Of a DNA stretch of 64,000 bases, positions 6,885 through 29,465 are shown piece after piece. Position 1 is the first letter of the stretch. Each line of letters starts with the position of its first letter. Below the pieces are notes generated by a model. It was not told the origin of the DNA. It saw nothing but the letters and a program-made list of their open reading frames with translations, and did no database searches. The stretch is taken from contig ATWC01000005.1 in NCBI GenBank assembly GCA_000421045.1, forward strand, positions 62,001-126,000, in the 5' to 3' direction. Source of the stretch: Lachnospiraceae bacterium NK4A179 (GTDB lineage: Bacteria; Bacillota; Clostridia; Lachnospirales; Lachnospiraceae). A program made the position numbers and the translations under genes.

Positions 6885-6967
6885 CATGTACCTCCAAATT
6901 AAGGATTCATCTGTTGTATAATTATTTAGTCTGAATATATATTATAGACCAGATGGTTGAGGTTTAC

Positions 6968-9567: not shown

Positions 9568-9583
9568 GAAGAGGTTCATGATA

Positions 9584-10585: not shown

Positions 10586-10607
10586 AGATAATGAGGGGGA
10601 TGAAGAT

Positions 10608-11126: not shown

Positions 11127-11127
11127 A

Positions 11128-12207
11128 ATGGAGTTTAATATATCAGCGCCTAATGAGCAGGCAATGAAGCTTGCGAGGGAGCGACAGGCAAAACTTGCAA
11201 AACCGCCCGGAAGCCTTGGCAGACTCGAAGATATATCAGTACAGCTTGCGGGGATAACCGGCAAAGTCTGCAATCATATGGAGAGAAAACTACTCCTTGT
11301 CTTTGCTGCCGATAACGGTGTGGCAGCAGAAGGGGTTTCCAGCGCACCTCAGTCTGTAACTCTTATGCAGACAGTTAATCTCACGCGCGCAAAGACCGGT
11401 GCATCGGTGCTTGCAAAACACTTTGGCTGTGAAATCATTGTATGCGATGTGGGCGTGAATGCGGATATAAAGGATGGTCATGTGCTGGATAAAAAGATCG
11501 CATATGGTACGAATGACATAATGAAGGGACCGGCAATGACCGTGGCTCAGGCGGAGAGCGCGATAAAGACAGGCTATGAGCTTGCATTTGAAGCAGATGC
11601 CGATGTGATAGGTGTAGGAGAAATGGGAATCGCCAATACTACCACTTCTGCCGCAGTGCTCAGTGTCCTTTTAGATAAAGAGCCTGCCGCAGTCACCGGA
11701 AGGGGCGGCGGCATTACCGATGAGGCTTTTGAAAAAAAGAAAAGAGTGATAGCGCAGGCTGTTGCGATCAACCATCCTGATCCTTCGGATACGGTAGGAG
11801 TTATCGCCACGCTTGGCGGTTTTGATATAGCTGCCATGTGCGGAGCATTCCTTGGCGCGGCAGCATCGGGAAAGCCTGCTGTAATTGACGGTTTTATATC
11901 CGCGGCAGCGGCTCTGTGCGCATACAGACTGTGCCCTGATGTGAAAGCCTATATGATACCGAGCCATGCTTCGTTTGAGATAGGATATAAGCTCGCAATG
12001 GATGAGCTGGGGCTTAGGCCGATATTTGATCTGGGTATGCGGCTTGGAGAGGGCAGCGGCTGCGTACTTGCCTTTAATGTGATAGAGGCAGCATGTGCAG
12101 TGATGAATGATATGGCCACGTTTGAAGAAGCCGGCATTGATGACGGCTATCTGGACGAGATCAGGGATAAAGACAGCTTTACCGTAAATGTAAAGAAAGG
12201 AAGCTGA
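11128..12207 (+). CDS. cobT: Nicotinate-nucleotide-dimethylbenzimidazole phosphoribosyltransferase
   Basis: 359 residues, full length. KLAKPPGSLGRLEDISVQLA, the VFAADNGVAAEGVS block, GEMGIANTTTSAAV and the C-terminal MRLGEGSGCVLAF are characteristic of CobT, which makes the alpha-ribazole phosphate of the lower ligand. The ATG starts one base after the cobO stop. Whether the base used is dimethylbenzimidazole or another cannot be told; no bza or bluB gene is in the window. Confidence 0.95.
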   Translation: MEFNISAPNEQAMKLARERQAKLAKPPGSLGRLEDISVQLAGITGKVCNHMERKLLLVFAADNGVAAEGVSSAPQSVTLMQTVNLTRAKTGASVLAKHFGCEIIVCDVGVNADIKDGHVLDKKIAYGTNDIMKGPAMTVAQAESAIKTGYELAFEADADVIGVGEMGIANTTTSAAVLSVLLDKEPAAVTGRGGGITDEAFEKKKRVIAQAVAINHPDPSDTVGVIATLGGFDIAAMCGAFLGAAASGKPAVIDGFISAAAALCAYRLCPDVKAYMIPSHASFEIGYKLAMDELGLRPIFDLGMRLGEGSGCVLAFNVIEAACAVMNDMATFEEAGIDDGYLDEIRDKDSFTVNVKKGS

Positions 12208-12209
12208 CC

Positions 12210-12719
12210 ATGGGAAGCCTTATACTGATCAAAGGTCCGAATAACAGCGGGAAAAGCGAGTATGCCGAGAAGCTTGCGATAGGAAGCAGTGAAGAACGTT
12301 TCTATATCGCTACGATGATCCCTGTAACAGAGGATAATCATGAGCATATTATGAGGCATATCGAGAGGCGAAAAGATATGGCCTTTACTACATACGAACT
12401 GCCGTATGAGGTGGGAAGCGCACCCGTGACAGCCTCATCTGCCGTGCTTCTTGAGGATGTATCAAATCTGCTTGCAAATGTAATGTTCGGAAAAAAAGGT
12501 GACATCGATTCGGTGTTTAAAGATATATGCCGTCTTAAAGAATCCTGCAGTGTGCTTATCGCGGTGAGCATATCAGGGCTTGATGAAGCAAAGTATGATG
12601 GTGAGACAGCAGATTATATAAGAGCGCTTGCGGAGCTTAACAGAAGGCTTGAACGCATATCGGAGAGAACTGAAGATATGATTAAGAGTGTTAGGGGAGA
12701 AAGATACAATGCTTTTTAA
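12210..12719 (+). CDS. cobU: Adenosylcobinamide kinase / guanylyltransferase
   Basis: 169 residues with the N-terminal P-loop LIKGPNNSGKSEYAEKLA, FYIATMIP and HIERRK, followed by LLEDVSNLLANVMF. These are the landmarks of CobU, which phosphorylates adenosylcobinamide and converts it to the GDP derivative. It starts two bases after cobT and overlaps the start of cobS. Confidence 0.92.
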   Translation: MGSLILIKGPNNSGKSEYAEKLAIGSSEERFYIATMIPVTEDNHEHIMRHIERRKDMAFTTYELPYEVGSAPVTASSAVLLEDVSNLLANVMFGKKGDIDSVFKDICRLKESCSVLIAVSISGLDEAKYDGETADYIRALAELNRRLERISERTEDMIKSVRGERYNAF

Positions 12720-13476
12720 ATCATTATGTACTGCGGTTTCGGCCTACAGTATCATACCGGTTCCTTATTACGAATGGGATAAGGAATCATCTGCATATGC
12801 GATATGCTTCCTTCCTGTCATAGGTTTTGTAAATGCTATCCTTTTTGCATTATGGATATTTATATGCAGGCTTACGGGGCTTAGCGCGATACTGTTTGCA
12901 GCGGTTGCCTCAGCTGTTCCTGTTTTCGTTACAGGAGGCATTCATATGGACGGCTTTATGGATACAGTGGATGCGCTTGCTTCTCATCAGCCTAAGGAAC
13001 GCAAGTTAGAGATCATGAAGGATCCTAACTGTGGAGCGTTTTCTGTTATCTACTGCGTGATCTATTTTCTGATCATGACGGGGCTCTTTTATGAATTGTT
13101 TAAGATGCCCGGTGAGATAGTGCTCTATGTCTGTCCCGCATATGTTTTTTCAAGGATATTATCAGCATTCTGTGCGATCAATATTTCGCATGCAAGGAAG
13201 AATGGCATGCTGGATGCCGTGACGGAACATGTAAAAAAGGTTCCTTGCAACATTGCGCTTATAGTACTCTTCATTATCATCGGAACAGCTGTTGCGGTAA
13301 TTGATATTCCGACAGGGCTTGCAGGGATCGCAGCAGTTATTATATGGACGATCATATACAGACGATTTGCTGTTAAGACATTTGGAGGAGTGACAGGCGA
13401 TACGGCAGGATTCTTCCTTCAGATGGCAGAGGTGATCTATATCATCGCGGTTTTGATCGGAGGGAAAGTTTTTTGA
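12709..13476 (+). CDS. cobS: Adenosylcobinamide-GDP ribazoletransferase (cobalamin synthase)
   Basis: 255 residues, integral membrane, with FVTGGIHMDGFMDTVDALAS carrying the acidic metal-binding residues typical of CobS and the GGVTGDTAGFF block near the C-terminus. It joins alpha-ribazole to adenosylcobinamide-GDP. The ATG at 12709 overlaps the cobU stop by 11 bp and has AGGGGAG upstream. Confidence 0.93.
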   Translation: MLFKSLCTAVSAYSIIPVPYYEWDKESSAYAICFLPVIGFVNAILFALWIFICRLTGLSAILFAAVASAVPVFVTGGIHMDGFMDTVDALASHQPKERKLEIMKDPNCGAFSVIYCVIYFLIMTGLFYELFKMPGEIVLYVCPAYVFSRILSAFCAINISHARKNGMLDAVTEHVKKVPCNIALIVLFIIIGTAVAVIDIPTGLAGIAAVIIWTIIYRRFAVKTFGGVTGDTAGFFLQMAEVIYIIAVLIGGKVF

Positions 13477-14033
13477 AGAAGCTGATCTTTATCCGTCATG
13501 GTGCAGTACCCGGAAATCTGGAACGCAGATATATAGGAAGGACTGACGAAGCCTTATCAAAAGAGGGGATAAGCCAGATGCTTTCGCTAAAGGAGAGGCA
13601 GATAAATGCGGATGTTATCTTTGTGAGCCCCATGCGCAGAGCCGTGCAGTCTGCAAGGCTGCTTTTTCCGGATAGAGAGCTGCAGATAATAGATGCTTTT
13701 AAAGAGACCGACTTTGGTATTTTTGAGGGAAAAACGGCAGATGAACTGGCAGATGATGAGGCATATAGGGAATGGGTGACTTCAGGCTGCACAGCGGATA
13801 TACCGGAGGGAGAGAGCGTTACAGGTTTTAAGGAGCGCTGCTGCAGGGCTTTTGAGAGCCTGATGCTTTTATTCGAAGACGGAAAGACATATGCCTTCGT
13901 GGTCCATGGTGGGGTGATAATGGCGATAATGGAACGCTTTTTTGTGCCTCATCATGATTTCTATCATTATCATATAAAAAACGGAGGGATGATCACTGCG
14001 CAGGTAAACGGCAGTGATCTGATCCCTCTTTGA
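13473..14033 (+). CDS. cobC: Alpha-ribazole phosphatase-like histidine phosphatase
   Basis: 186 residues of the histidine phosphatase superfamily: catalytic FIRHGAVPGN at the N-terminus, acid residue region FKETDFGIFEGKTADEL, second catalytic histidine in VVHGGVI. Its place at the end of the cob operon indicates dephosphorylation of alpha-ribazole phosphate or adenosylcobalamin phosphate. Translation starts at TTG 13473, which overlaps the cobS stop and lies after GGAGGG. No clear terminator is seen in the 28 bp before the convergent chemoreceptor gene. Confidence 0.88.
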   Translation: MKKLIFIRHGAVPGNLERRYIGRTDEALSKEGISQMLSLKERQINADVIFVSPMRRAVQSARLLFPDRELQIIDAFKETDFGIFEGKTADELADDEAYREWVTSGCTADIPEGESVTGFKERCCRAFESLMLLFEDGKTYAFVVHGGVIMAIMERFFVPHHDFYHYHIKNGGMITAQVNGSDLIPL

Positions 14034-15960: not shown

Positions 15961-15966
15961 CTTGAT

Positions 15967-16205
15967 GTTGATTCGTCAGGTGCTGCGGAATTAATAGTAC
16001 GCAGATAATAGGGAAGCGGGTGCAAATCCCGCACGAACTCGTCACCGTGATTGCAGGAAAGACCACAGACTAAATAGCCACTGGATATAGACCGGGAAGG
16101 CTGTCTGAGGGTCATGCATCAGCCGGGAGACCTGCCTGTTCGAAGACGCGTGCCGCGAGTAATCGGCAAGGCGTGTCACAAGTGCATCCTTTCAACGTGG
16201 GTGCA
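15967..16205 (+). promoter_or_regulatory. Cobalamin riboswitch
   Basis: The conserved landmarks occur in order: AGGTGCTGCG, AATAGGGAA, GCGGGTGCAAATCCCGC, CGTCACCGTGA, GCCACTG, ACCGGGAAGG, GGGAGACCTGCC, and a terminal arm built on GACGCGTGCC and GGCAAGGCGTGTC. This is the adenosylcobalamin-type aptamer layout. It is followed by a small hairpin (TGCATCC/GGGTGCA) and a terminator, consistent with transcriptional shut-off of the downstream operon when cobalamin is plentiful. Confidence 0.93.
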
Positions 16206-16213
16206 TTCAGACG

Positions 16214-16246
16214 CCTTTTGCCCTTTTATCGGGTGAGAGGTTTTTT
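16214..16246 (+). terminator. Riboswitch-controlled terminator
   Basis: CCTTTTGCCC pairs with GGGTGAGAGG over ten positions (three G-U), loop TTTTATC, followed by six T and ending six bases before the cbiK ribosome binding site. It is the likely expression platform of the riboswitch. Confidence 0.7.
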
Positions 16247-16264: not shown

Positions 16265-17539
16265 ATGAAAAAAAAATTACTGATGGTTATGCTGTCATGT
16301 ACTGTAACAGCATCATTACTTGCCGGTTGCGGTGCGAAAGATGCGTATACCGCAGCACCCGAGCCGACTGCAGAGGCAGAGCCCGCAGAGCCTGTTGCAA
16401 CTGAGGAAGCTGCAGAGCAGGATACTGCAGAGGTTACCGAAGAAGTTACAGAAGAGACTACAGGTTCAGACCAGGAGGCTGCAGACATGGTTGCTGATTT
16501 GATCGATGCTATATACGTACAGACCTGGACAGAAGATACCGAAAGACAGTGCGCCGAGGCAAAGGCTGCATGGGATGCTCTTACAGATGAGCAGAAGGAG
16601 ATGGTATCAGGTGAAGAGGCTGATCCCGATTATTTCGGCAGAGATACAGGTGATGCTGCTGCGGATGATCCGCTCAATGCAGATGAGATAGGGGAGAAGG
16701 AAATATTAGTAGTAAGCTTTGGTACTTCATTCAATGATTCACGTGCGACAGACATAGGCGGTATAGAGAAGGCTATTGCAAAGGCTTATCCTGAATGGTC
16801 AGTACGCAGAGCATTTACAGCACAGATCATCATCAATCACGTTCTTGCCAGAGATGGTGAGAAGATCGACAATATCGATCAGGCTCTTAAGCGTGCAGTA
16901 GATAACGGCGTTAAGGAGCTTATCGTTCAGCCTACACATCTTATGCATGGCGCAGAGTATGACGAGATCGTATCAGCTGTAAAGAATTATGAAGGTCAGA
17001 TCGATTCCATCGTTATCGCAGAGCCTCTTCTTGGTGAGGTGGGAGCAGATGCTTCAGCCAGCAATGAAGATAAGCAGAATGTAGCTAAGTTTATCACTGC
17101 AGCTGCACTTGAAACTTCCGGCTATGCTGATCTGGATGCTGCAAAGGCTGATGGCACAGCATACGTATTTATGGGCCATGGAACATCTCATTCTGCCGCC
17201 GTTACTTACTCACAGATGCAGACAACATTTGATGAGATGGGCTATGACAATGTATTCGTAGGCACAGTAGAAGGCAATCCTGAAGAGACTGCATGTGAAG
17301 CTGTTATCGAAAAAGTTAAGGCAGCAGGCTACAAGAAGGTTGTGCTCCGTCCACTGATGGTCGTTGCAGGCGATCATGCCAATAATGATATGGCAGGAGA
17401 TGATGACGATACATGGAAGAGCCTCTTTATCATGGATGGATCATTTGAAGATATCAAGTGCCAGATAGCCGGTCTTGGCGGAATAGAAGATGTGGAACAG
17501 ATATATGTTGCACATACAGGCGAGGCTATAAAGAAATAA
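16265..17539 (+). CDS. cbiK: Extracytoplasmic lipoprotein sirohydrochlorin cobaltochelatase
   Basis: 424 residues. A lipoprotein signal (VTASLLAGCGAKD, lipid-attached Cys about 21) is followed by an Ala/Glu/Thr-rich linker to about residue 70, a short helical module (TERQCAEAKAAWDALTDEQK) and then a complete CbiK domain: ILVVSFGTSFNDSRATDIGG, RRAFTAQIIINHVLA, PTHLMHGAEYDEI and FMGHGTSHSA (metal-binding histidines), and LRPLMVVAGDHANNDMAGDD. CbiK inserts cobalt into sirohydrochlorin, the first committed anaerobic step. The lipobox places the enzyme outside the membrane; exported CbiK is known from Desulfovibrio. First gene after the riboswitch; GGAGG is 8 bases before the ATG. The TTG at 16250 overlaps the ribosome binding site and is rejected. 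Confidence 0.9.
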   Translation: MKKKLLMVMLSCTVTASLLAGCGAKDAYTAAPEPTAEAEPAEPVATEEAAEQDTAEVTEEVTEETTGSDQEAADMVADLIDAIYVQTWTEDTERQCAEAKAAWDALTDEQKEMVSGEEADPDYFGRDTGDAAADDPLNADEIGEKEILVVSFGTSFNDSRATDIGGIEKAIAKAYPEWSVRRAFTAQIIINHVLARDGEKIDNIDQALKRAVDNGVKELIVQPTHLMHGAEYDEIVSAVKNYEGQIDSIVIAEPLLGEVGADASASNEDKQNVAKFITAAALETSGYADLDAAKADGTAYVFMGHGTSHSAAVTYSQMQTTFDEMGYDNVFVGTVEGNPEETACEAVIEKVKAAGYKKVVLRPLMVVAGDHANNDMAGDDDDTWKSLFIMDGSFEDIKCQIAGLGGIEDVEQIYVAHTGEAIKK

Positions 17540-17548
17540 GGATTAAAA

Positions 17549-18532
17549 ATGAAAAACAGATATTCATCATTCTTAATTAAATGTGCAGCAATACTGATGA
17601 CAGGCTCTCTTCTTTCCGGATGCGGGCCTGCATCTGAGCCTGCAGTTCCCGTTGCTTCAACAGAAGATGTAAAAGCGGCTGAGGTTACGGAGGCTGCAGA
17701 TACAGAAACTGAAGTTACTGAAACGGAAGTTACAGAGCCTGAAGCTACGGAAGCTGCAACTACGGAGGCTGCAGAGACTGTGGCTCAGGCAGCGCTTGCA
17801 GACGGCACATATGTATGTGATTTTATAACCGACAGCAGTATGTTTGCTGTGAATGAAGCCTGTGAGGGCAAAGGCCTTCTGACTGTGAAAGATGGACAGA
17901 TGACCATACATGTCAGTCTCATGTCGGAGAAGATATTAAATCTTTTCCCCGGCCTTGCGGAAGATGCCGAGAAGGATGGTGCCGTGCTTCTTGAGCCCGT
18001 GAAGGATACCGTGACATATTCAGATGGATACAGCGAGACTGTAAACGGTTTTGATGTGCCGGTGCCGGCTATTGATGAAGAGTTTGATCTGGCGATCATC
18101 GGAACAAAGGGCAAATGGTATGATCATAAAGTAAAGGTATCTGCTCCGGTTGAGGGGGACAGCGTACCCGGACTGCAGGCGGCTTTCAAAACTGCTGCAG
18201 ATCTGGAACTTGCAGATGGTGTATATACTGCGGAAGTGACACTCAAAGGCGGATCAGGCAAGGCATCTGTCACATCCCCCGCGATCATTAAGGTAGAGAA
18301 CGGTACTGTATATGCAGATATCGAATTCTCAAGTGCAAACTATGATTATATGCTCCTTGACGGGACCAGATATGAGGCTGATACCTCGGGAGGACTGTCA
18401 GTATTTGAAGTGCCGATCGCAGGTTTTGACAGCGAGATCGCGATCACCGCGGATACAACAGCTATGAGCGAACCTCATGAGATCGACTACACAGTCTGCT
18501 TTGATTCCGCATCAATTAAGGAAAGCAAGTAA
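17549..18532 (+). CDS. Lipoprotein with two beta-rich repeats, possible tetrapyrrole or metal binding
   Basis: 327 residues: lipobox GSLLSGC (Cys about 25), a Thr/Glu/Ala-rich linker to about residue 82, then two domains. The first (about 85-200) has DGTYVCDF and LLTVKDGQMTIHVSLMS and ends KWYDHKVKVS. The second (about 215-325) reads ADGVYTAEVTLKGGSGKASV, AIIKVENGTVYADIEFSS, NYDYMLLDGTRYE and TTAMSEPHEIDYT. From memory, similar beta-sandwich domains occur beside FecCD-type importers in Clostridia and recall NEAT domains, but I cannot prove the homology. Located between the exported CbiK and the binding protein, it may capture or hand over a corrin precursor. That role is inferred from context. 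Confidence 0.7.
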   Translation: MKNRYSSFLIKCAAILMTGSLLSGCGPASEPAVPVASTEDVKAAEVTEAADTETEVTETEVTEPEATEAATTEAAETVAQAALADGTYVCDFITDSSMFAVNEACEGKGLLTVKDGQMTIHVSLMSEKILNLFPGLAEDAEKDGAVLLEPVKDTVTYSDGYSETVNGFDVPVPAIDEEFDLAIIGTKGKWYDHKVKVSAPVEGDSVPGLQAAFKTAADLELADGVYTAEVTLKGGSGKASVTSPAIIKVENGTVYADIEFSSANYDYMLLDGTRYEADTSGGLSVFEVPIAGFDSEIAITADTTAMSEPHEIDYTVCFDSASIKESK

Positions 18533-18540
18533 CTGTTCTT

Positions 18541-19704
18541 TTGAAAAAAACGATCACAGGAAAAATTCTAACAGGAAAGGCAGGTGTCGTATTCGGTGCG
18601 GCACTTGCCTTTCTCTGTCTTATGACAGCATGTTCTGTCAATGATACACCCGATGTTACTTCACTTGAGTATGGCGGGCTTGTTAAGGAAAGGGAGTATA
18701 TCCCTCAGTTAGCTGCAGGGTTTAAGATAAAGTATTACGCCGGTGGTTATGAAGAGGTATGTGTATCGGATGGAAGGGATTATCTGGTGATACCGGAGGG
18801 AAGCGCTACGCCTGATGGCATACCTGACAATGTTACCGTCATAGATCATATACCCGATCATATATATGTGGCTTCATCAGCTGCGATGTGCAGGTTCGAT
18901 GCAACAGATACTATAGACAGGGTCGCATTCTCAGGAGTGAAAGCAGAAGACTGGAAGATAGAAGCTGCAAAGGCCGCAATGGATAACGGACAGATGATCT
19001 ATGCCGGCAAATATTCCGCACCGGATTACGAGATGCTGCTTTCGGGAAAGTGTGATCTGGCGGTAGAGAATCTGATGATATTGCATAAGCCCGAGATAGC
19101 AGAACAGCTTGAGTCTCTTGGGATACCTGTTTTTATAGACAGGTCCTCCGAGGAAAATGAACCGCTTGGCAAGACCGAATGGATCGTAGCCTACGGTGTG
19201 CTTACGGGAGAGGAAGATAAGGCGCTCGCATTGTTTGAAGAACAGAAGGCGCTTGCCGATGCCTTTTCGGATTTTCCTGCCACAGACAAAACAATAGCGT
19301 ATTTTTATGTGAATTCACAGGGACAGATCGTATGTCCCAAAACAGAAGAATCCATTCCGAAGATGATCTCATATGCAGGCGGGAAATATGCCTGTGAAGG
19401 TCTATCGGATGAAGAGACCGGACTCATATCGACGGTAAAGATCGATATGGAAACATTTCTAAAGATGGCACGTGATGCCGATTATCTGGTATATGATGCC
19501 AATATAGAACCTATTGATTCGGTAAACGATCTGCTTGAAAAGAACAGTTTATTTGAAGAATTTAAGGCTGTTAAAGAGGGCAGTGTATATATAATCGGAA
19601 ACTCAATGTATCAGAACTCCGATAAGGCCGGAACCATTATAAATGATCTGCACAGTATGATCACAGGTCAGGAAGATATGGTTTATCTGAGGAAAGCAAG
19701 ATGA
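18541..19704 (+). CDS. ABC transporter substrate-binding lipoprotein (BtuF/FepB-like)
   Basis: 387 residues with a lipoprotein signal (FLCLMTACSVN) and the two-lobed binding-protein pattern of the iron-siderophore/cobalamin class: PDNVTVIDHIPDHIYVASSA early, ALFEEQKALADAF in the linking helix and DYLVYDANIEPIDSVNDLL towards the end. It probably delivers a corrinoid, tetrapyrrole or metal complex to the FecCD permease encoded next, which overlaps it by 4 bp. Translation appears to start at TTG 18541; no strong ribosome binding site is close, so coupling to the preceding gene is likely. Confidence 0.82.
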   Translation: MKKTITGKILTGKAGVVFGAALAFLCLMTACSVNDTPDVTSLEYGGLVKEREYIPQLAAGFKIKYYAGGYEEVCVSDGRDYLVIPEGSATPDGIPDNVTVIDHIPDHIYVASSAAMCRFDATDTIDRVAFSGVKAEDWKIEAAKAAMDNGQMIYAGKYSAPDYEMLLSGKCDLAVENLMILHKPEIAEQLESLGIPVFIDRSSEENEPLGKTEWIVAYGVLTGEEDKALALFEEQKALADAFSDFPATDKTIAYFYVNSQGQIVCPKTEESIPKMISYAGGKYACEGLSDEETGLISTVKIDMETFLKMARDADYLVYDANIEPIDSVNDLLEKNSLFEEFKAVKEGSVYIIGNSMYQNSDKAGTIINDLHSMITGQEDMVYLRKAR

Positions 19705-20723
19705 CATCAGCTGAAAAAAGAAAAATAACAATAGTATATTGTCTGCTCATCGTATTGATGATATTTCTTTTCATGCTTTCCATCAGTACCGGAAGTGTCA
19801 TGGTGCCTTTTTCGCGCGTTGCATCTGTATTGATAAAGGGCACGGGTGATAATGATACTGTTATGATCATTAAGATGATACGTCTTCCGAGAACGGTTTT
19901 GGCGTTGGTCTCCGGCGGAGCACTGGCGCTTGCCGGATATCTGTTACAGACATTTTTCCGTAATCCCATAGCCGGACCTTATGTAATGGGAATATCATCC
20001 GGTGCAAGGATGATGGTTGCTGTAATGACGATCATTGTGCTTAGCAGAGGCGGCGGTGTGTCTTCTATACAGATGGTAGTCGTATCTTTTGCGGGGGCTC
20101 TTCTCTCAACAGTTGTGATACTTCTGCTCTCTACAAGGATAAAGAGCATGTCCGTGCTGCTTGTTGCGGGCATAATGATCAGTTATATATGTACGGCAGT
20201 TACTGATTTTATCGTCAATGTTGCAGGAGATTCTTCCGTGGTGAATATGCATGGATGGTCGCAGGGAAGCTTTTCCGGAACCTCTGAGCAGGAAGCGGCA
20301 TTTGCCGCCGTTTTTATTCTGATCGTATCGATGATCGTATGGGCTGTGTCGAAACCTATAGGAGCATACAGGAATGGAGAAGTGTATGCTAAGAGTGTCG
20401 GGGTGAATGTCAGAGCCCTGCAGATATCGATCATACTTTTATCAAGTCTTTTATCAGGTATTGTAACAGCGTTTGCAGGGCCTGTTTCTTTTGTGGGTAT
20501 AGCGGTTCCGTTTATCGTAAGGAAGCTTATGACTGACAGAAGACCGGTCATCATGATGCCTGCAGTATTCCTTACGGGAGCGTCCTATACAATGGCCGCA
20601 GACCTGGCAGCACGTATGCTGCTCTCACCGACAGAACTTTCTCTCTCGACGGTTACAGCTTTTGCAGGTGTTCCGATCGTGCTGATCATGCTGGCAGGAG
20701 GCAGGTTTGAAAGGAAATGTTGA
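19701..20723 (+). CDS. FecCD-family ABC transporter permease
   Basis: 340 residues, about ten membrane helices. RLPRTVLALVSGGALALAGY, LQTFFRNPIAGPYVMGISSG, GPVSFVGIAVPFIVRKLM and the C-terminal GVPIVLIMLAGG are signature stretches of the BtuC/FecCD/FhuB permease family. The ATG overlaps the binding-protein stop (ATGA). The partner ATPase is encoded 107 bp downstream, after three hairpins. The substrate is inferred to be cobalamin-related because of the riboswitch and neighbours. Confidence 0.92.
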   Translation: MTSAEKRKITIVYCLLIVLMIFLFMLSISTGSVMVPFSRVASVLIKGTGDNDTVMIIKMIRLPRTVLALVSGGALALAGYLLQTFFRNPIAGPYVMGISSGARMMVAVMTIIVLSRGGGVSSIQMVVVSFAGALLSTVVILLLSTRIKSMSVLLVAGIMISYICTAVTDFIVNVAGDSSVVNMHGWSQGSFSGTSEQEAAFAAVFILIVSMIVWAVSKPIGAYRNGEVYAKSVGVNVRALQISIILLSSLLSGIVTAFAGPVSFVGIAVPFIVRKLMTDRRPVIMMPAVFLTGASYTMAADLAARMLLSPTELSLSTVTAFAGVPIVLIMLAGGRFERKC

Positions 20724-20814
20724 TACATTTCCTTTCAAACACAAATTGGTGAATACGCCTTCGGCGTATTCACCAATTTGCCAGCTCAGAGAAACCGCAT
20801 ACGCGGATTTCTCT
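20705..20814 (+). repeat. Three consecutive perfect or near-perfect hairpins
   Basis: Hairpin A (20705-20740): GTTTGAAAGGAAATGT-TGAT-ACATTTCCTTTCAAAC, 16 bp, with the permease stop codon in its loop. Hairpin B (20742-20780): CAAATTGGTGAATACGCC, loop TTC, and its perfect 18-bp complement. Hairpin C (20788-20814): AGAGAAA and CCGC paired with GCGG and TTTCTCT, one bulged A. None is followed by a T run, so they are not ordinary terminators. They may set mRNA stability or processing between the permease and the ATPase-CbiD gene. Confidence 0.85.
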
Positions 20815-20827
20815 TCGTGGAGGTACA
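20791..20827 (+). repeat. 37-bp intergenic element, copy 1
   Basis: The 37 bases ending in TCTTCGTGGAGGTACA are identical at 34 positions to those at 28780-28816. Both copies end just before a start codon and contribute its ribosome binding site (GTGGAGGTAC here). Copy 1 includes most of hairpin C. Confidence 0.85.
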
Positions 20828-20830
20828 AGA

Positions 20831-22783
20831 ATGACAGATAAATATATTGAAGTCCATGACATGACAGCAGGGTACAAAGGCACGTCGGTTTTGGAAAATA
20901 TTAGTTTTGATATATGTAAAGGTGAGATGGTATCGATCGTGGGGCCAAACGGCGCCGGTAAATCCACATTGCTGTATGTTTTGTCAGGACTGCTCGCGCC
21001 AATGTCCGGAAGGATACTTATAGAAGGACAGGATCTTAACAGGATATCGGACGGTGACAGAGCACGAAAGATAGCAGTGATGTTTACCGAGCGTGTGAAG
21101 AAGGAAGCGGAGAGTTGCCTGGCAGTCGTATCTGAAGGCAGGTATCCGTATACCGGATGGTTTGGAAGGCTCTCCGAAGCCGATATGGATATAGTCAGAA
21201 AAGTGATGGAGATGACAGACTGCCTCACTCTTGCAGACAGGAATTTTAATGAGCTTTCTGACGGACAGAAGCAGAGAGTGTTGCTTGCCAGGGCAATCGC
21301 GCAGGAACCGGGTGTGCTGATACTGGATGAACCTACAACCTTCCTGGATCTGAAATACCAGCTGGAACTGCTGGATCTGTTAAAAAATCTCTCTAGGGAT
21401 GCGGACCATCCGTTGACGATAGTTATGTCTCTGCATGAACTTAACCTTTCCCAGAAGTTTGCGGACAGGGTACTCATGCTGGGTGATAAAGAGATCACAG
21501 CTTACGGGAAGCCTGCCGATGTGATGACAGTTCCTGCGCTGACAAGGTTGTACGGTATAGATGAACATCTCCTGCATGACTTCATGGCAGGAGATATCGC
21601 TTCTGAAAAAAATGATAAAAGTACGGATGAGGATATAAATTCAAATGATACTGCAACGGAAAATGGCTTGAGACGTGGCTTCACAACAGGTACTTCAGCT
21701 GCGCTTGCAAGTCAGGGGGCTGCAGAATATCTCCTTACGGGGATAAGGCCTTCCGAGATGTCAGTCATGACTCCGGCAGGGATAAGAGTAAGTGTCACAC
21801 CTTTTGAATGCGGATGCGATGAAGAAGAAAAAACTGCTTACTGCACGGTAGTCAAAAATGCAGGAGATGACCCTGATGTGACGAATGGGATACATATCAG
21901 AGCTGAGGTGACGCTAACGGATGAGGAAGGCATTGTCATAGATGGAGGAGAAGGTATAGGAAGAGTTACACTTCCAGGCCTTGACCAACCCGTTGGAGAG
22001 GCGGCAATCAACCATGTGCCGAGGAAGATGATAAGTGATGTGCTTAAGGTATCGGCCAGGGAGAATGGTTATACGGGTGGTTTCAAAGTGATCGTAAGTG
22101 CCGAGAACGGTGAGGCGATTGCTGCCAGAACATTGAACAGCACGCTTGGTATAAAGGGCGGCATTTCTATCATTGGCACGAGCGGCATAGTGGAGCCCAT
22201 GTCTGAAAAGGCTCTTGTGGATACGATAAGGGTTGCGGTCCGTCAGGCGGCTGCGATGGGGAACAGAAGCATCATCCTTACGCCGGGTAATTACGGAGCA
22301 GAATTTATCAAAAAGAACAGGATTGACAAGCTGGATATACCGGTCATACAGATGTCTAATTTTATAGGAGATGCACTGGATATAGCCGCCAATGCGGGTA
22401 TAGAGCGTGTGATGCTCATAGGGCATACAGGAAAGCTTGTAAAGCTTGCAGCATCGGTCATGAACACTCATTCAAAATATGCTGATGGACGAAGAGAGAT
22501 ATTTGCCTGCTATGCAGCGCTTGCGGGCGCATCTGCCGGATGTATAAAAAAGCTGTATGAGAGCGTAACGAGCGATGCATGTATCGATATCCTGAAGGAA
22601 GAGTCACTTCTTCAGGATACAGAGAAACTGATAATCCGGTCTATACAGGCTAATCTGGAGCGCAGGGCCGGAGGTAAGTTTGAAGTAGGCGCACTTTTGT
22701 TTTCGAATGTTCACGGCTTGTTCGGTATAACGGATAAAGGTCGGGAGCTGCTTACAGAGTTTGGATATAAAGGAGCATTATAA
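20831..22783 (+). CDS. cbiD: Fusion of ABC transporter ATPase with CbiD (cobalt-precorrin-5B C1-methyltransferase)
   Basis: 650 residues in one uninterrupted frame. Residues 1 to about 250 are an ABC ATPase of the FecE/BtuD type: GPNGAGKSTLLYVLSGL (Walker A), ELSDGQKQRVLLARAIA (signature), GVLILDEPTTFLD (Walker B), MSLHELNLS (H-loop). A hydrophilic Asp/Asn/Ser linker of about 27 residues follows. From Gly 279 the sequence is CbiD: GLRRGFTTGTSAALASQGAA, TVVKNAGDDPDVTNG, ITLTPGNYG-type (IILTPGNYGAEF), FIGDALDIAANAG and IGHTGKLVKLAASVMNTHS. The ATPase should power the FecCD permease just upstream, while CbiD methylates C1 of cobalt-precorrin-5B. I recognise each half confidently; I do not recall such a fusion being described. 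Internal initiation could also make free CbiD. Confidence 0.92.
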   Translation: MTDKYIEVHDMTAGYKGTSVLENISFDICKGEMVSIVGPNGAGKSTLLYVLSGLLAPMSGRILIEGQDLNRISDGDRARKIAVMFTERVKKEAESCLAVVSEGRYPYTGWFGRLSEADMDIVRKVMEMTDCLTLADRNFNELSDGQKQRVLLARAIAQEPGVLILDEPTTFLDLKYQLELLDLLKNLSRDADHPLTIVMSLHELNLSQKFADRVLMLGDKEITAYGKPADVMTVPALTRLYGIDEHLLHDFMAGDIASEKNDKSTDEDINSNDTATENGLRRGFTTGTSAALASQGAAEYLLTGIRPSEMSVMTPAGIRVSVTPFECGCDEEEKTAYCTVVKNAGDDPDVTNGIHIRAEVTLTDEEGIVIDGGEGIGRVTLPGLDQPVGEAAINHVPRKMISDVLKVSARENGYTGGFKVIVSAENGEAIAARTLNSTLGIKGGISIIGTSGIVEPMSEKALVDTIRVAVRQAAAMGNRSIILTPGNYGAEFIKKNRIDKLDIPVIQMSNFIGDALDIAANAGIERVMLIGHTGKLVKLAASVMNTHSKYADGRREIFACYAALAGASAGCIKKLYESVTSDACIDILKEESLLQDTEKLIIRSIQANLERRAGGKFEVGALLFSNVHGLFGITDKGRELLTEFGYKGAL

Positions 22784-24579
22784 TGGTTTATTTCATCGGA
22801 GCCGGGCCGGGCGATCCGGAACTGATCACTCTAAAAGGATACAGATTGCTGCAGGAAGCTGATACCGTTATCTATGCGGGGAGTCTTGTTAATCCTGAAC
22901 TGTTAAAGTATTGCAGAAAAGATGCTGCTGTTTATGACAGTGCCCACATGTCTCTTCCGGAGATAACGGAGGTCATCAGACAGACAGAACCCGGGATCAC
23001 GGTCAGGCTTCAGACAGGAGATACTTCATTATATTCTGCGATAAATGAACAGACTGCAGAGCTGAAGAGATATGGGATAAGCTACAGCACGGTTCCCGGA
23101 GTATCAAGCTTCTGCGCTGCTGCGGCTGCACTGGGTACTGAATATACAGTCCCCGGCAGATCGCAGTCCGTGATAATAAGCAGGATAGAAGGGAGGACAC
23201 CTGTTCCCGAAAGAGAACGCATTCAGGATATGGCTTCTCATAAGACGTCCATGGTGCTCTTCCTTTCGGCAGGGAAAACAAAAGAAGTTGAGGAAGCGCT
23301 GCTTGCGGGAGGGTACAGTGCGGATACACCTGCAGCTATCATTTACAAAGCAAGCTGGCCTGAGGAGAAGAAGTTTTTCTGTACTGTCGGAACGCTTGAT
23401 CAGACAGCGAAGGATAACGGGGTAAGCAGGACAAGTCTTCTGCTTATAGGAGATTTCTTAAACGGAAGTGAGCAAAAGAGTCTGCTCTATGATCCGGATT
23501 TCACCACAGGATACAGAGAAGGAAAACAAGGCAAAGCAGGTACATATGCCTGTGCCTTTACTGACAGAGGCTATGAGCTTGGAGAAAAGTTAGGGGTCGA
23601 CAGTCTTACGAGGATAAGCAGGAAGCAGGGGACTTGCACTCTTGATGAATGGGTGCAGGAACATTTCTATACCGCAAAGACACTTGTTTTTATCGGAGCT
23701 GTGCAGATAGCGGTAAGAGCTGTTTCAAAATATATCAGAGGAAAGGATAGTGATCCTGCTGTCATAGTGATCGATGAAGCAGGACAGTATATTATACCGG
23801 TTCTTTCCGGTCATATAGGCGGAGCTAATGCAGAAGCAGCGAAGCTTGCTGAAATAACAGGTGGGGTGTCTGTGATCACGACCGCAAGTGACATAAGGGG
23901 CCTGTGGGCTGCCGATACCTGGGCGGTACAGCATGGATTAAAGGTAAAGTATACCGGAAACATTGTCAGGGTCCAGAGTGCGTTGCTGGATGCGCAGAAG
24001 ATAAGGATCGGTCTGGGTCAGATGATAAAGATAGCTGATCAGGATAAGGATGATCAGCTTGTATTTGAAGATAAATATGATAAAGAGCAGCAGGCGCAGA
24101 TAAGAATTTCGGGCTATGACACAGGTAAGGACGGATGTGTGGCAGCAGGCAGCAGACGGCAGGTATCAGATGATACATTGATACTGATCCCAAAATGTGT
24201 ATCTGTTGGAATAGGCTGCAAAAAGGGAACTCCAAAAGAAAAGATAGTGGAAGCATTTGATAAGTTCTTAGCTGACAATGATATATACAGGGAGTCCGTA
24301 AAAGATATAGCATCGATAGATCTGAAAAAGGATGAAGAGGGACTTCTTGAATTTGCAGGTGAAAAGGGACTGGAAATCCGCTTCTATACCGCAGAGGAGC
24401 TTGGTAATGCGCAGGGGGATTTTACAGCGTCTGATTTTGTCATGAAGACGACAGGAGTTGATAATGTGTGCGAAAGGGCAGCAGTGTTGCAGGCAGGCAA
24501 AGAAGGAAAGCTCATCGTCCGCAAAACCGTGTATGAAGGTGTGACGATCGCGGCGGCAGAAGGCAGGTTGATCATATGA
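22783..24579 (+). CDS. cbiF/cbiG: Fusion of CbiF (precorrin-4 C11-methyltransferase) and CbiG (cobalt-precorrin-5A hydrolase)
   Basis: 598 residues. Residues 1 to about 245 are CbiF/CobM: FIGAGPGDPELITLKG, ADTVIYAGSLVNPELL, RLQTGDTSLYSAINEQ and PGVSSFCAAAAALGTEYT. The rest is CbiG: FTDRGYELGEKL, FIGAVQIAVRAVSKYI, IPVLSGHIGGANAEAAKLAE and the C-terminal SVGIGCKKGTPKEKIVEAF. The two act in consecutive steps (C11 methylation, ring opening with loss of acetaldehyde). The ATG overlaps the preceding stop by one base. Confidence 0.93.
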   Translation: MVYFIGAGPGDPELITLKGYRLLQEADTVIYAGSLVNPELLKYCRKDAAVYDSAHMSLPEITEVIRQTEPGITVRLQTGDTSLYSAINEQTAELKRYGISYSTVPGVSSFCAAAAALGTEYTVPGRSQSVIISRIEGRTPVPERERIQDMASHKTSMVLFLSAGKTKEVEEALLAGGYSADTPAAIIYKASWPEEKKFFCTVGTLDQTAKDNGVSRTSLLLIGDFLNGSEQKSLLYDPDFTTGYREGKQGKAGTYACAFTDRGYELGEKLGVDSLTRISRKQGTCTLDEWVQEHFYTAKTLVFIGAVQIAVRAVSKYIRGKDSDPAVIVIDEAGQYIIPVLSGHIGGANAEAAKLAEITGGVSVITTASDIRGLWAADTWAVQHGLKVKYTGNIVRVQSALLDAQKIRIGLGQMIKIADQDKDDQLVFEDKYDKEQQAQIRISGYDTGKDGCVAAGSRRQVSDDTLILIPKCVSVGIGCKKGTPKEKIVEAFDKFLADNDIYRESVKDIASIDLKKDEEGLLEFAGEKGLEIRFYTAEELGNAQGDFTASDFVMKTTGVDNVCERAAVLQAGKEGKLIVRKTVYEGVTIAAAEGRLII

Positions 24580-25322
24580 AGAAATTGTATGTGACGGGGA
24601 TAGGTCCGGGATGCAGGGAAGATATGACTCTGCGGGCACTTAAGGCACTTGAGGATTCGATGCTTATAGTCGGATATACCGGATATGTTGAAATTCTTAA
24701 GGAAGAACTTGGAGATGAGGCATTCATGTCATCAAAAGAATTCTATACTACCGGCATGACAGGTGAAACAGACAGATGCAGATATGCCCTGGAAAAAGCG
24801 CATGAGGGCATCACCACATCTATCATATGTTCAGGTGATGCGGGAATATATGGAATGGCTTCTCCAGTACTTGAGCTGTCACGAGACTATCCGGATGTTG
24901 ATATAGAGATAGTGCCCGGTATCACGGCGGCTTCATCGGGAGCCGCGCTTACAGGTGCGCCGATAGGGCATGACCTTGCGATCATTTCGCTTTCGGACAG
25001 ACTGACTCCATGGGATGTGATAGAGAAGAGACTGCGTCTTGCAGCACAGGGAGCTTTCGTTACCGTTCTGTACAATCCGGTATCCAAAGGCAGACCTGAT
25101 GGTATAAAGAAGGCTGTTTCCATCTTTATTGAAGAAGGTGTTTCGGGTGATACTCCATGCGCACTTGCCAGAAAAATAGGCAGGAGTGGGGAGAATGCCG
25201 AAGTCACTACACTTGCAAAGCTTCCGGATGCAGACTGTGATATGTATACCACGGTTTTTATCGGAAGTGACAAAACATATGAAGCATGCGGCAAAATGAT
25301 CACACCGAGAGGTTACAGATGA
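24576..25322 (+). CDS. cbiH: Precorrin-3B C17-methyltransferase
   Basis: 248 residues of the tetrapyrrole methylase fold: YVTGIGPGCREDMTLRALKA, CSGDAGIYGMASPVLEL, PGITAASSGAALTGAPIGHD and VTVLYNPVSKGRPD. These match CbiH/CobJ, which methylates C17 with ring contraction. ATGA overlap with the preceding gene. No fused ferredoxin-like C-terminal extension is present. Confidence 0.93.
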   Translation: MKKLYVTGIGPGCREDMTLRALKALEDSMLIVGYTGYVEILKEELGDEAFMSSKEFYTTGMTGETDRCRYALEKAHEGITTSIICSGDAGIYGMASPVLELSRDYPDVDIEIVPGITAASSGAALTGAPIGHDLAIISLSDRLTPWDVIEKRLRLAAQGAFVTVLYNPVSKGRPDGIKKAVSIFIEEGVSGDTPCALARKIGRSGENAEVTTLAKLPDADCDMYTTVFIGSDKTYEACGKMITPRGYR

Positions 25323-26095
25323 AGCTTATCATTTTTTCGGGAACTACTGAAGGAAGGGATATATCTGCACGTCTGAACGCCATGGGGCATGATGTGACAG
25401 TGTCTGTTGCAACTGACTATGGCAGGGTAAAACAGGGCGAGGGAGATGTGAAGATCCTGGAAGGCCGGATGGATGAAGTGCAGATGGAGAATGTGATAGC
25501 AGATTTTGATCTGTGCATTGATGCAACACACCCATATGCCGCAGAGGCAGGTGCCAATATAAAGAAAGCCTGTGAACGTGCAGGCATCAGATATATGAGG
25601 CTTGCAAGAGCGGTAAGTAATATACCTGATGATTCAATGATATTTGCCGATGCGTCCAAAGCTTCCGAGTATCTGGAAACAACTAAGGGTAATGTCCTGC
25701 TCACAACAGGTGCAAAGGAGATAGGCGTCTTTGAGAAGATAGAAAGGGAGCGGCTGTTTGTAAGGATACTTCCTTCCATGCTTTCTTTGAAGGCTGCTGA
25801 GGATGCAGGTATCAGACCTGAAAACATCATTGCTATGGAAGGTCCTTTTTCGGAAGAAATGAATGAATTGCTCATACGCGAGAAACAGATAAAGTACCTT
25901 GTGACCAAAGACGGTGGGGTGAAAGGCGGATTTCCGCAAAAGGCAGGAGCCTGTGAAAAGACAGGCGCAAAGCTTTTGTTAATAGACAGGCCTTCCGGCA
26001 GGGAAGGAATGAATGAAGAAGAGATCATAACAGAGATCAATAATATAGAAAACAATAAAGAAATCATATTATCAGGCAAAGAGGGCAAGTCATGA
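25319..26095 (+). CDS. cobK: Precorrin-6A reductase (CobK/CbiJ)
   Basis: 258 residues. IIFSGTTEGRDISARLNAMG at the N-terminus, DLCIDATHPYAAEAGANIKKA, VLLTTGAKEIGVFEKI and YLVTKDGGVKGGFPQKAGA near the C-terminus are the family landmarks. It reduces the C18-C19 double bond of the macrocycle with NAD(P)H. The ATG at 25319 overlaps the cbiH stop (ATGA); the upstream start would extend into cbiH. Confidence 0.92.
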   Translation: MKLIIFSGTTEGRDISARLNAMGHDVTVSVATDYGRVKQGEGDVKILEGRMDEVQMENVIADFDLCIDATHPYAAEAGANIKKACERAGIRYMRLARAVSNIPDDSMIFADASKASEYLETTKGNVLLTTGAKEIGVFEKIERERLFVRILPSMLSLKAAEDAGIRPENIIAMEGPFSEEMNELLIREKQIKYLVTKDGGVKGGFPQKAGACEKTGAKLLLIDRPSGREGMNEEEIITEINNIENNKEIILSGKEGKS

Positions 26096-27315
26096 AAAAA
26101 GGGATCTATCTGATAGGCTGCGGAAGCGGAGATAAGAAATACATTTCTTCCGCCGCATTGGATGTGATAAAAGCGGCGGATATCGTGATAGGTGCAGGCA
26201 GGCTTATAGACTGCCTTTCAGATATCATCACATGCAAAACAAGAGCTTTGTATATGACGGAAGATATAGTTAAGGAGCTTAAAGGTTGCAGTGATGATGT
26301 TATGGCTGCCGTTATTTTTTCGGGAGATACAGGATTCTTTTCAGGAGCAGGCAAGCTTGGAAAAAGACTTGATGAAGAAGGGATAGCTTACGAAGTGCTT
26401 CCCGGCATATCAAGCCTTCAGATGCTGTCTGCAAAGATTATGGAAGATTATCAGGATGTGAATACCATATCGCTTCACGGAAGGACTGAGAATTATGAGG
26501 ATATAAAGCATGCCGTGACAGCGGCGCTTATGACCGGAAAAAAATCCTTCTTTCTGACAGGTGGCAAGGCTCATCCGGAAGATATATTCAAGGTGCTTGT
26601 GGAATGCGGCCTTGGAGATATTCAGACGGTTACGGGTGAGGATCTGTTTACGGATAAGGAAAGGATAGTGCGCGGAAGAGCATGCGAACTGGCTGATGCT
26701 TCCTTCAGTGAACTTTCGGTCGTTGTGGTCTATGCTGCCCCGGTCTATACCGGTGTGGGGAGAGGCATACCTGATGATGAATTTATCAGGGGAAGTGTGC
26801 CCATGACCAAAAGGTTTGTCAGGGCATCAGTTGTATCTGCACTAAGGCTTAGCCCCTCTGATACGGTATGGGATGTGGGTGCCGGTACTGGTTCCGTAAG
26901 TGTTGAGATTGCACTCTCATGCCCGGAGGGAACCGTATGCGCTATAGAGAAGGATACTGAAGGAGTGGCTCTTATAAAAGATAATAAAAGAAAATTCAGC
27001 TGCATGAATATGGAAATATATGAGGGCGAAGCACCTGCGGCACTTACAGAACTTCCGGTGCCGGATGCTGTATTTATCGGGGGAAGCAGCGGTAAGCTGG
27101 AGGAGATATTAAAAACAGTTTATGAGAAAAATGCGCAGGCAAGGGCGGTGATAACTGCTGTGACATATGAAACATTAAATGCATCAACGGAGATCTTTGA
27201 CAGATTAAACAGGGATTATGAGGTGACGCAGATCAGTGTGACCGAGACAGCGCACAGAGGTCGTTATCACATGCTGCAGGCACAGAACCCCGTGTTTATC
27301 ATTTCTGCAGTCTGA
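26092..27315 (+). CDS. cbiET: Precorrin-6Y methyltransferase, CbiE-CbiT fusion
   Basis: 407 residues. The N-terminal half is CbiE (YLIGCGSGDKKYISSAALDV, IFSGDTGFFSGAGKLGKRL, LPGISSLQMLSAKI). The C-terminal half, from about residue 245, is CbiT (RASVVSALRLSPSDTVWDVG, AGTGSVSVEIAL, VFIGGSSGKLEEIL). Together they methylate C5 and C15 and decarboxylate the C12 acetate. The fused arrangement equals CobL of aerobic organisms and is common in Firmicutes. ATGA overlap with cobK. Confidence 0.93.
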   Translation: MKKGIYLIGCGSGDKKYISSAALDVIKAADIVIGAGRLIDCLSDIITCKTRALYMTEDIVKELKGCSDDVMAAVIFSGDTGFFSGAGKLGKRLDEEGIAYEVLPGISSLQMLSAKIMEDYQDVNTISLHGRTENYEDIKHAVTAALMTGKKSFFLTGGKAHPEDIFKVLVECGLGDIQTVTGEDLFTDKERIVRGRACELADASFSELSVVVVYAAPVYTGVGRGIPDDEFIRGSVPMTKRFVRASVVSALRLSPSDTVWDVGAGTGSVSVEIALSCPEGTVCAIEKDTEGVALIKDNKRKFSCMNMEIYEGEAPAALTELPVPDAVFIGGSSGKLEEILKTVYEKNAQARAVITAVTYETLNASTEIFDRLNRDYEVTQISVTETAHRGRYHMLQAQNPVFIISAV

Positions 27316-27325
27316 AAGGATATAT

Positions 27326-28771
27326 ATGAGTACAGGTTTTTTGATATCAGCTCCCTCATCGGGATCGGGCAAGACTGTTGTCACGCTGGTACTGCTTGCC
27401 CTGTTAAAAAGAAAGGGCTATGCACCCGCGGCTTTTAAGGCAGGGCCTGATTATATCGATCCAATGTATCACAGGGCTGTTACGGGGGAAGCTTCACATA
27501 ACCTGGACACTTATCTGGCAGATGAGCAAACCGTGGAAACAGTATTTGAAAAATACAGCACAGGTCATGATATTTCTGTTGTGGAAGGCGCAATGGGATA
27601 CTATGACGGGATAGGCGGAAGCGTGGCAGATGCAAGTGCTTATGATGTGGCAAGGTTACTGGGGCTGCCTGTGATACTGGTAGTCACATCCAAAGGGACA
27701 GCACTTTCAGATGCAGCAGTGATAAAGGGCATGAAGGAATTCAGGCCTGATTCAGGAATACACGGAGTGATACTCAATAAGTGCAGCAGCAGGCTTTTCG
27801 AACGGATGAAACCCGTGCTTGAGAAGGAAGCCGGCATTCCTGTACTTGGATATCTTCCTTCAAATGCAGATGCAGATTTTCCTTCCAGACATTTAGGCCT
27901 CTGTACGGCAGGAGAAATAAGTGATCTGCAGGAGCGGATAGAGAGACTTGCCGCGCTGGCAGAAGGAACGATAGATACCGAAAAGATTTTGGGGATGACG
28001 CGATCCTGTGATTTGGAGTATAATACATATCTGTCTGAGGATGTTCCGGTAAGGCATGAACCTTTTAAGGATAATTCTTCGGATGATAATTCTTCGGATG
28101 ATAATTCGTCGCATGACCGTCCTCTCATCGCTGTGGCAAGGGACGAATCTTTTTGTTTCACATATGATGAGTCGATAGATATTTTGAAAGAAATGGGCGC
28201 GGACATTTCTTTTTTCAGCCCACTCAATGACACTGCCCTTCCTGAAGGCGCTGATGCGCTGTATCTTCCGGGCGGGTATCCGGAGCTCTATCTTGAAAAA
28301 CTCTCCGGAAATGAAGCGATGCTTAATGAGATACGCCTGGCAGCGAAGGATCATATGCCTATAGTGGCAGAGTGTGGCGGATATATGTATCTGTGCCGCG
28401 GGATCATGGATGATGATGGCAGATGTTACAAGATGGCAGGCCTGCTTCCCGGGATCTTAAAGAAGACTTCGGGGCTGGTGAGATTTGGCTATGCTTCGCT
28501 TCAGGCCAATGAGGAAAGCCTCTTATTTGAAAAAGGCGACAGCATCCGTATCCATTCATTTCATCATTTTGATCCTATAAGCAGTGAAGATGATGAAAGA
28601 GGAGATGCTTTCAGTTTCTGCAAGGCATCTGATAAAAGCGAGTGGAAAGAGGGCTTTGCGGGCAGCAGCCTTTATGCTGCATTCCCTCATATCTATTTCC
28701 CGGGCTGCAGGAAGGCAGTACAGCGGATGATACGCGCTGCAATAGCTTTTCATAAAGAGCGGGAAGCATAG
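27326..28771 (+). CDS. cbiA: Cobyrinate a,c-diamide synthase
   Basis: 481 residues. Dethiobiotin-synthetase-like ATP domain with SAPSSGSGKTVVTL and FKAGPDYIDPMYHRAVTG; glutamine amidotransferase domain with ALYLPGGYPELYLEKL, VAECGGYMYLCRG (nucleophile) and IHSFHHFD (histidine). It amidates side chains a and c. Between the domains, at residues 249-263, lies a Ser/Asp-rich linker encoded by a threefold 15-bp repeat. Confidence 0.95.
   Translation: MSTGFLISAPSSGSGKTVVTLVLLALLKRKGYAPAAFKAGPDYIDPMYHRAVTGEASHNLDTYLADEQTVETVFEKYSTGHDISVVEGAMGYYDGIGGSVADASAYDVARLLGLPVILVVTSKGTALSDAAVIKGMKEFRPDSGIHGVILNKCSSRLFERMKPVLEKEAGIPVLGYLPSNADADFPSRHLGLCTAGEISDLQERIERLAALAEGTIDTEKILGMTRSCDLEYNTYLSEDVPVRHEPFKDNSSDDNSSDDNSSHDRPLIAVARDESFCFTYDESIDILKEMGADISFFSPLNDTALPEGADALYLPGGYPELYLEKLSGNEAMLNEIRLAAKDHMPIVAECGGYMYLCRGIMDDDGRCYKMAGLLPGILKKTSGLVRFGYASLQANEESLLFEKGDSIRIHSFHHFDPISSEDDERGDAFSFCKASDKSEWKEGFAGSSLYAAFPHIYFPGCRKAVQRMIRAAIAFHKEREA
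28070..28114 (+). repeat. 15-bp coding repeat, three copies
   Basis: GATAATTCTTCGGAT occurs twice exactly and a third time with two changes. It encodes DNSSD-type units in the interdomain linker of CbiA. The unit length is a multiple of three, so copy-number change would not break the frame. Confidence 0.9.
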
Positions 28772-29461: not shown

Positions 29462-29465
29462 AAGA

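Follow-up and report, generated by a model that had tools for sequence, protein, structure and literature searches.

Why would an operon for corrin-ring synthesis open with a CbiK-type chelatase that carries a lipoprotein signal, and pass through an importer before most of the ring enzymes are encoded? The question is posed by a locus of Lachnospiraceae bacterium NK4A179 (GenBank assembly GCA_000421045.1, contig ATWC01000005.1), from which a stretch of 64,000 nucleotides (positions 62,001 to 126,000, forward strand) was analyzed and is referred to here as the window. We consider it moderately likely that the locus encodes a surface salvage route, in which an exogenous ring of the sirohydrochlorin or factor III type would be captured, cobalt would be inserted outside, and the cobalt complex would be imported.

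A riboswitch-headed operon with a lipoprotein CbiK

The features of the operon, with coordinates in the window and expectation (E) values of the matches, are as follows.

15961..16153, +, cobalamin riboswitch RF00174 (cmscan, 94.4 bits, E 3e-22)
16213..16241, +, terminator-like hairpin between the riboswitch and the CbiK gene (consensus scan only)
16265..17539, +, CbiK-type class II chelatase homologue, lipoprotein (PF06180, 5e-71; lipobox LLAGC)
17549..18532, +, predicted tandem NEAT-fold lipoprotein, candidate tetrapyrrole carrier (Pfam NEAT in relatives, AlphaFold, Foldseek)
18541..19704, +, Peripla_BP_2 binding protein of the importer (PF01497, 2e-30)
19701..20723, +, FecCD-family permease (PF01032, 1e-69)
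20831..22783, +, ATP-binding cassette (ABC) ATPase and CbiD in a single frame (PF00005, 4e-32; TIGR00312, 2e-110)
22783..24579, +, CbiF-CbiG fusion (TIGR01465, 3e-90; CbiG_N and CbiG_C)
24576..25322, +, CbiH (TIGR01466, 5e-81)
25286..26095, +, CbiJ (TIGR00715, 1e-50); the true start is probably at 25316
26092..27315, +, CbiE-CbiT fusion (TIGR02467, 7e-37; TIGR02469, 2e-35)
27326..28771, +, CbiA (NF002204, 4e-135)
28820..29461, +, CbiC (PF02570, 1e-67)

An earlier, sequence-only reading had described a riboswitch-headed operon of a lipoprotein CbiK, a second lipoprotein, a binding protein, a FecCD permease, and an ATPase fused to CbiD, followed by the early corrin-ring genes. The first part of this description was confirmed by cmscan, Pfam, and NCBIfam searches and by the lipoboxes. 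The corrin genes from CbiF-CbiG to CbiC were likewise present, but CbiL is missing from both the cluster and the genome. The riboswitch ends upstream of position 16265, where that reading began the locus, and all seven related loci that were tested likewise have a cobalamin riboswitch 5' of CbiK; the hairpin at 16213-16241 is a possible expression platform. Because the same gene order recurs in most of 80 related loci, the locus is not a chance arrangement.

The PF06180 match of CbiK spans residues 145-422 and profile positions 1-261 of 262, preceded by a conserved helical N-terminal extension (approximately residues 63-140). The lipobox, read from the sequence, recurs in all 23 other complete CbiK copies examined from the same genus and suggests that the protein is located on the membrane's outer side. 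The structural model superimposed on Salmonella Typhimurium CbiK (1qgo) with a template modeling (TM) score of 0.92 and also matched the periplasmic CbiK of Desulfovibrio vulgaris (2xvz) and FetB of Porphyromonas gingivalis (9b86) (TM 0.88); FetB, close in fold, is also the best sequence match among solved structures. Residues H305, E336, and H371, which we take to form the catalytic metal site, do not vary across 22 aligned sequences, and their motifs (MGHG, GTVEG, and AGDH) align with the same motifs in 1qgo and 2xvx. Chelatase activity is therefore likely, as far as conservation can indicate it. The protein scored 185 bits against the 400 needed for the NCBIfam equivalog SiroCoChCbiK, so we treat it as a homologue and not as certified isofunctional. 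In a few loci from other genera (L192, L202, L005, L007, and L008), the open frame of CbiK also encodes, at the N terminus, a domain of some 300 residues.

The second lipoprotein (lipobox LSGC) had been proposed as a carrier, to be compared with NEAT folds, and structure prediction bore this comparison out. Its AlphaFold model (predicted local distance difference test score 83) consists of two beta-sandwich domains, and every Foldseek match in PDB with E up to 0.001 was a NEAT protein, among them the tandem-NEAT IsdH N2N3 and the single-NEAT IsdX1 and Hbp2. The C-terminal domain of the window's copy matched PF05031 (NEAT) at E 1.9e-5, under Pfam's cut-off, whereas 39 of 44 family members matched it (best E 1.2e-9). 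A sequence search of PDB with the NEAT profile returned no match, although the fold search did. Together, these data support a tandem NEAT fold, as modeled. NEAT domains bind heme in Isd systems, and the protein is a candidate tetrapyrrole carrier.

The binding protein has a lipobox (MTAC) and is probably also a lipoprotein. Its profile found Lmo2184 (E 6e-6), not BtuF, as the closest relative in PDB, and it fits no NCBIfam family. BtuC gave the permease its top NCBIfam score, well under the cut-off (169 of 334 bits), and BtuD was likewise below equivalog level (114 of 281 bits). The ATPase-CbiD fusion also occurs in four related loci (L066, L079, L080, and L113).

To survey the neighborhood of lipoprotein CbiK and FecCD importers, genome contigs were scanned with the NEAT lipoprotein, which yielded at least 493 confirmed relatives; the best 80, from named Clostridia genomes, were kept. 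The NEAT gene accompanied CbiK, or importer genes on short contigs, in 80 of these 80 loci; one such contig (L125) carries only NEAT, binding protein, and permease. In most of the loci the next genes encode the binding protein, FecCD, and ABC components, and in many, cob genes come after these. Among these relatives, fusions of CbiK with NEAT, NEAT with binding protein, FecCD with ABC, ABC with CbiD, and ABC with CbiP tie the chelatase homologue, NEAT protein, importer, and corrin enzymes together. Hosts include Blautia, Roseburia hominis, Sellimonas, Parablautia, and rumen Lachnospiraceae. Exported CbiK, which the sequence-only reading had credited to a few bacteria, is thus common in Clostridia; its copies belong mostly to one lineage, with that of the window in a fully supported clade of 33.

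Genes missing from the genome and its relatives

The NK4A179 genome (3.22 Mb, rated 100% complete) was then tested family by family. CbiK is present in a single copy, so a second, cytosolic CbiK was rejected for this genome. CbiM, standing for the CbiMNQO transporter, was not found, in keeping with the earlier remark that no cobalt transporter was seen. The sequence-only reading had named a cytosolic CbiK together with CbiMNQO elsewhere in the genome as grounds to refute its proposal, and neither turned up, CbiM representing the transporter. CbiX was not found either; as a hidden cytosolic chelatase it was rejected more widely, since every CbiX match in 68 genomes with exported CbiK falls inside a CbiK gene. 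HemC was absent from the genome and from every same-genus genome searched (0 of 35). The only four tetrapyrrole methylases are RsmI, CbiF, CbiH, and CbiE, which leaves the genome without CobA and CbiL; a search with CbiL's own model found none.

Overall, no known internal means of ring supply, chelation, or cobalt import turned up among those searched for, and the cell's tetrapyrrole, with HemC, CobA, and CbiL gone, most likely comes from outside. The corrin steps from CbiH to CbiA are nevertheless kept despite loss of the tested earlier genes. The profile of a salvager genome is seen here, with HemC and CobA absent and CbiD to CbiC and the loop genes present (HemA, HemB, and HemD were not searched in this genome). 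In 20 of 24 genus members whose only CbiK is of the exported kind, HemC, CbiL, and CbiM are all missing; one of the 20 (G021) gives a partial CbiL match, and some of the 24 genomes are incomplete.

Whether such losses follow the type of CbiK was asked in an order-level set of 294 genomes, 153 of them with CbiD, in which a CbiK gene lying near a NEAT match was counted as exported, a rule that misses some lipoprotein CbiKs (L185, L191, L195-L197, and L200). In CbiD-containing genomes, HemC was absent from 34 of the 52 whose CbiK is solely NEAT-linked and from 11 of the 79 that have only other kinds of CbiK (Fisher p 1.6e-9). Counted by genus, the figures were 19 of 29 and 6 of 44 (p 8.8e-6), and by genus majority in the window's family, 16 of 21 and 0 of 18 (p 1e-6), once G310 (miscounted) and G292 (CbiK place not listed) had been reassigned; these p values are optimistic, as genera are not fully independent. 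Genomes with both kinds of CbiK kept HemC in 9 of 10 cases. NEAT presence alone was tried as a correlate of HemC loss and dropped, HemC being absent in a similar share across all genomes; a difference emerges only if CbiD-containing genomes are compared by CbiK type. In a set of 116 genomes, CbiL was absent from 22 of the 32 with exported CbiK only and from none of the 18 with cytosolic CbiK only. CbiM gave a weaker signal, being absent from 5 of 9 exported-only genera, the window's included, versus 2 of 17 cytosolic-only genera (p 0.03). NEAT-linked CbiK was never seen without CbiD in either the 294- or the 116-genome set, which ties the exported system to corrin making.

Two observations were made in passing. 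Weak matches to CbiD, with E about 1e-44, occur in G116, G133, G203, G342, and others, in some beside a normal CbiD, and possibly represent a paralogue with another function. One genus (g151; G147, G200, G206, G211, G216, and G221) has CbiD and a short, apparently cytosolic CbiK with no HemC, and may be another kind of precursor auxotroph without the exported system.

The proposed route and its rivals

From these data we infer the substrate, the direction of metal transfer, the cargo, the tetrapyrrole source, and the location of the proteins as follows. When cobalamin is scarce, the riboswitch would permit expression of the operon. The tandem-NEAT lipoprotein would capture a metal-free tetrapyrrole of the sirohydrochlorin or factor III type from the surroundings, and lipoprotein CbiK would place Co2+ in the captured ring on the outside of the membrane. 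The cobalt complex would reach the FecCD importer through the binding protein, and the ATPase, here fused to CbiD, would deliver it to the corrin enzymes. With such a route, the cell would need neither its own precursor synthesis nor a cytosolic chelatase or cobalt importer. The pathway runs from CbiK/X through CbiL to CbiH (PMC7242693); entry would be at CbiL where CbiL is kept and at CbiH where it is lost. Because the tested genes before CbiH are gone and those from CbiH onward are kept, the loss boundary suggests that this species imports Co-factor III. The sequence-only reading had likewise proposed extracytoplasmic cobalt insertion with direct import, and this passed every sequence-level test available; what it missed is the external source of the tetrapyrrole that the absence of HemC, CobA, and CbiL implies, so that overall it is partly supported.

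Several observations weigh against the salvage route. The least comfortable is the loss of CbiL, which demands a C20-methylated substrate or another C20 step. In the last NEAT strand, Y314 of the YxxxY motif is invariant in the alignments, but position 318 is mostly Phe, not Tyr. Absence of a chelatase and of cobalt import is judged by CbiK, CbiX, and CbiM, CobNST-type chelatases (CobN) and NiCoT not having been searched for in this genome. CbiM is present in 4 of 8 exported-only genera besides the window's, HemC is kept by 18 of 52 exported-only genomes, and in one of them (G296) hem and corrin genes lie side by side. The loss statistics, moreover, are only partly corrected for descent, NEAT-linked CbiK being largely one lineage.

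Retention of HemC is also what favors an alternative in which the cell makes sirohydrochlorin by unrecognized enzymes, exports it for metalation, and takes it back. Among eight hemC loci read in HemC-keeping exported-only genomes, however, corrin genes adjoin in G296 only. In three (L221, L227, and L234, from G178, G359, and G208), hemC adjoins sulfite reductase as identified by Pfam, as expected for a siroheme role apart from the corrin operon; the other loci adjoin Met8-like, HemA, HemB, or CobA-HemD genes. With no HemC in 35 members of the window's genus and no CobA or CbiL in the NK4A179 genome, we find export and re-import highly improbable. An ordinary BtuFCD-like uptake of cobalamin, cobinamide, or other corrinoids, with CbiK and NEAT aiding corrinoid capture or cobalt handling and the ring genes fed otherwise, seems to us simply unlikely. 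BtuFCD is often under cobalamin riboswitch control, and the permease does score best with BtuC, albeit below the cut-off, but the binding-protein profile retrieves Lmo2184 and not BtuF, and corrinoid import would render CbiH to CbiA dispensable, yet these were kept while tested upstream genes were lost. It would also leave unexplained the intact chelatase active site, the NEAT fusions to CbiK and to the binding protein, and the ATPase fusions to CbiD and CbiP.

The CbiM counts by genus would suit a cobalt-acquisition device, in which a tetrapyrrole serves CbiK and NEAT as cobaltophore or the two proteins just hold cobalt, the importer replaces CbiMNQO, and the ring comes by another route. We regard this as quite unlikely, as it does not account for the missing ring precursors and cytosolic chelatase, and FecCD importers transport chelates, not bare ions. 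A heme-iron system of the kind proposed for P. gingivalis Iht, with CbiK stripping iron from NEAT-bound heme and iron or porphyrin being imported, would agree with the NEAT fold match and with the view of the CbiK homologue IhtB/FetB as an iron remover (PMC10913741, PMC13227078). Control by a cobalamin riboswitch, linkage to corrin enzymes in one operon and by fusion, and the lack of any case without CbiD in the 294- and 116-genome sets make it very unlikely here. That the locus is a decaying relic of a lost pathway, without present function, would fit the loss of upstream genes; with reading frames intact, active-site residues invariant across many species, and regulation and order retained, we give it hardly any credence.

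Related systems and neighboring genes

Compared with the standard anaerobic pathway (cytosolic CbiK or CbiX plus CbiMNQO), the proposed salvage route shares the CbiH-to-CbiA enzymes and a CbiK-family chelatase; in the standard pathway, however, the chelatase is inside, the cobalt ion is imported, and the ring is made de novo. The Isd/Hbp relay of Gram-positive bacteria similarly places NEAT-fold surface proteins before a FecCD-type importer, but its cargo is heme, its control is by iron, and we know of no chelatase lipoprotein or corrin genes in it. CbiKP, the exported CbiK of D. vulgaris, has the same fold as the window's CbiK (2xvx/2xvz) and is a heme-binding periplasmic tetramer that exists alongside a second, cytoplasmic CbiK; the window's protein differs in being a lipoprotein, in single copy, with a NEAT partner. 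A single B12 element spans cbiK-cbiL and btuCDF in Desulfovibrio (PMC545781).

The closest known system is Iht of P. gingivalis (IhtB/FetB), with which the locus shares a lipoprotein CbiK homologue, a binding protein, a permease, and an ATPase. Iht is filed as heme/iron uptake, has a TonB outer-membrane receptor, and is described neither with a NEAT protein nor as a riboswitch-controlled corrin operon (PMC10913741); its exported CbiK homologue is read as removing iron from heme (PMC10913741, PMC13227078). The window's cluster has no TonB-dependent receptor. Given its riboswitch, operon, fusions, and co-occurrence with CbiD, the window's locus offers stronger evidence for a corrin role than does Iht. 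A passage of PMC6461909, citing earlier work, reports P. gingivalis to lack precorrin-2 synthesis, and the title of a reference in PMC6593275 credits it with corrin genes.

Tetrapyrrole-precursor salvagers (Shelton et al. 2019) likewise have corrin and loop genes without early ring synthesis. They form a recognized class, of which three tested examples need only 5-aminolevulinic acid (PMC6461909), and a precorrin-2 type is among those predicted (PMC8123684). Most differ from the window's genome in having CbiL, and no uptake or chelation machinery is named for them in the relevant passages. Transporters for B12 precursors have been called an open problem (PMC6593275), and species with corrin genes but no precorrin-2 synthesis have been counted among B12 producers or treated as puzzling (PMC6461909, PMC6593275). 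The locus offers concrete, testable machinery for such transport.

We put at about even the chance that this is a widespread, unnamed route of gut Clostridia, in which NEAT proteins capture an exogenous isobacteriochlorin (factor II/III), surface CbiK adds cobalt, and a corrin-linked FecCD importer brings cobalt and ring in together, with Iht as a possible relative serving the same purpose. In the open-access literature, the scope of our search, no paper was found that links CbiK with NEAT or names such a route. An exported chelatase with an importer is of a known kind; the function proposed for it would be new. If it holds, cobalt insertion into a tetrapyrrole can happen extracellularly, with cobalt and ring acquired jointly. 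Gut B12 "producers" of this type would rely on neighbors for an intermediate, and predictions of B12 production from corrin genes alone would be wrong for many Lachnospiraceae.

The later steps are encoded upstream of the riboswitch:

6953..14033, +, late cobalamin cluster (Pfam)

It comprises a CobD-type aminotransferase, CbiP, CbiB, CobO, CobT (TIGR03160 match), CobU (assigned by position and by blastp to relatives), CobS, and a CobC-type phosphatase. A methyl-accepting chemotaxis protein gene (14062-15801, -) separates this cluster from the riboswitch operon. Immediately 3' of cbiC lies a heavy-metal P-type ATPase with two HMA domains (29427-31976, +). Elsewhere in the window, an open frame at 4018-6024 (+) joins a LacI-type binding-protein-like sensor domain to a GGDEF diguanylate cyclase, and one at 34544-35680 (-) runs from a Pfam AbiEii nucleotidyltransferase match directly into the latter half of an ABC ATPase domain, either an odd fusion or a misassignment.

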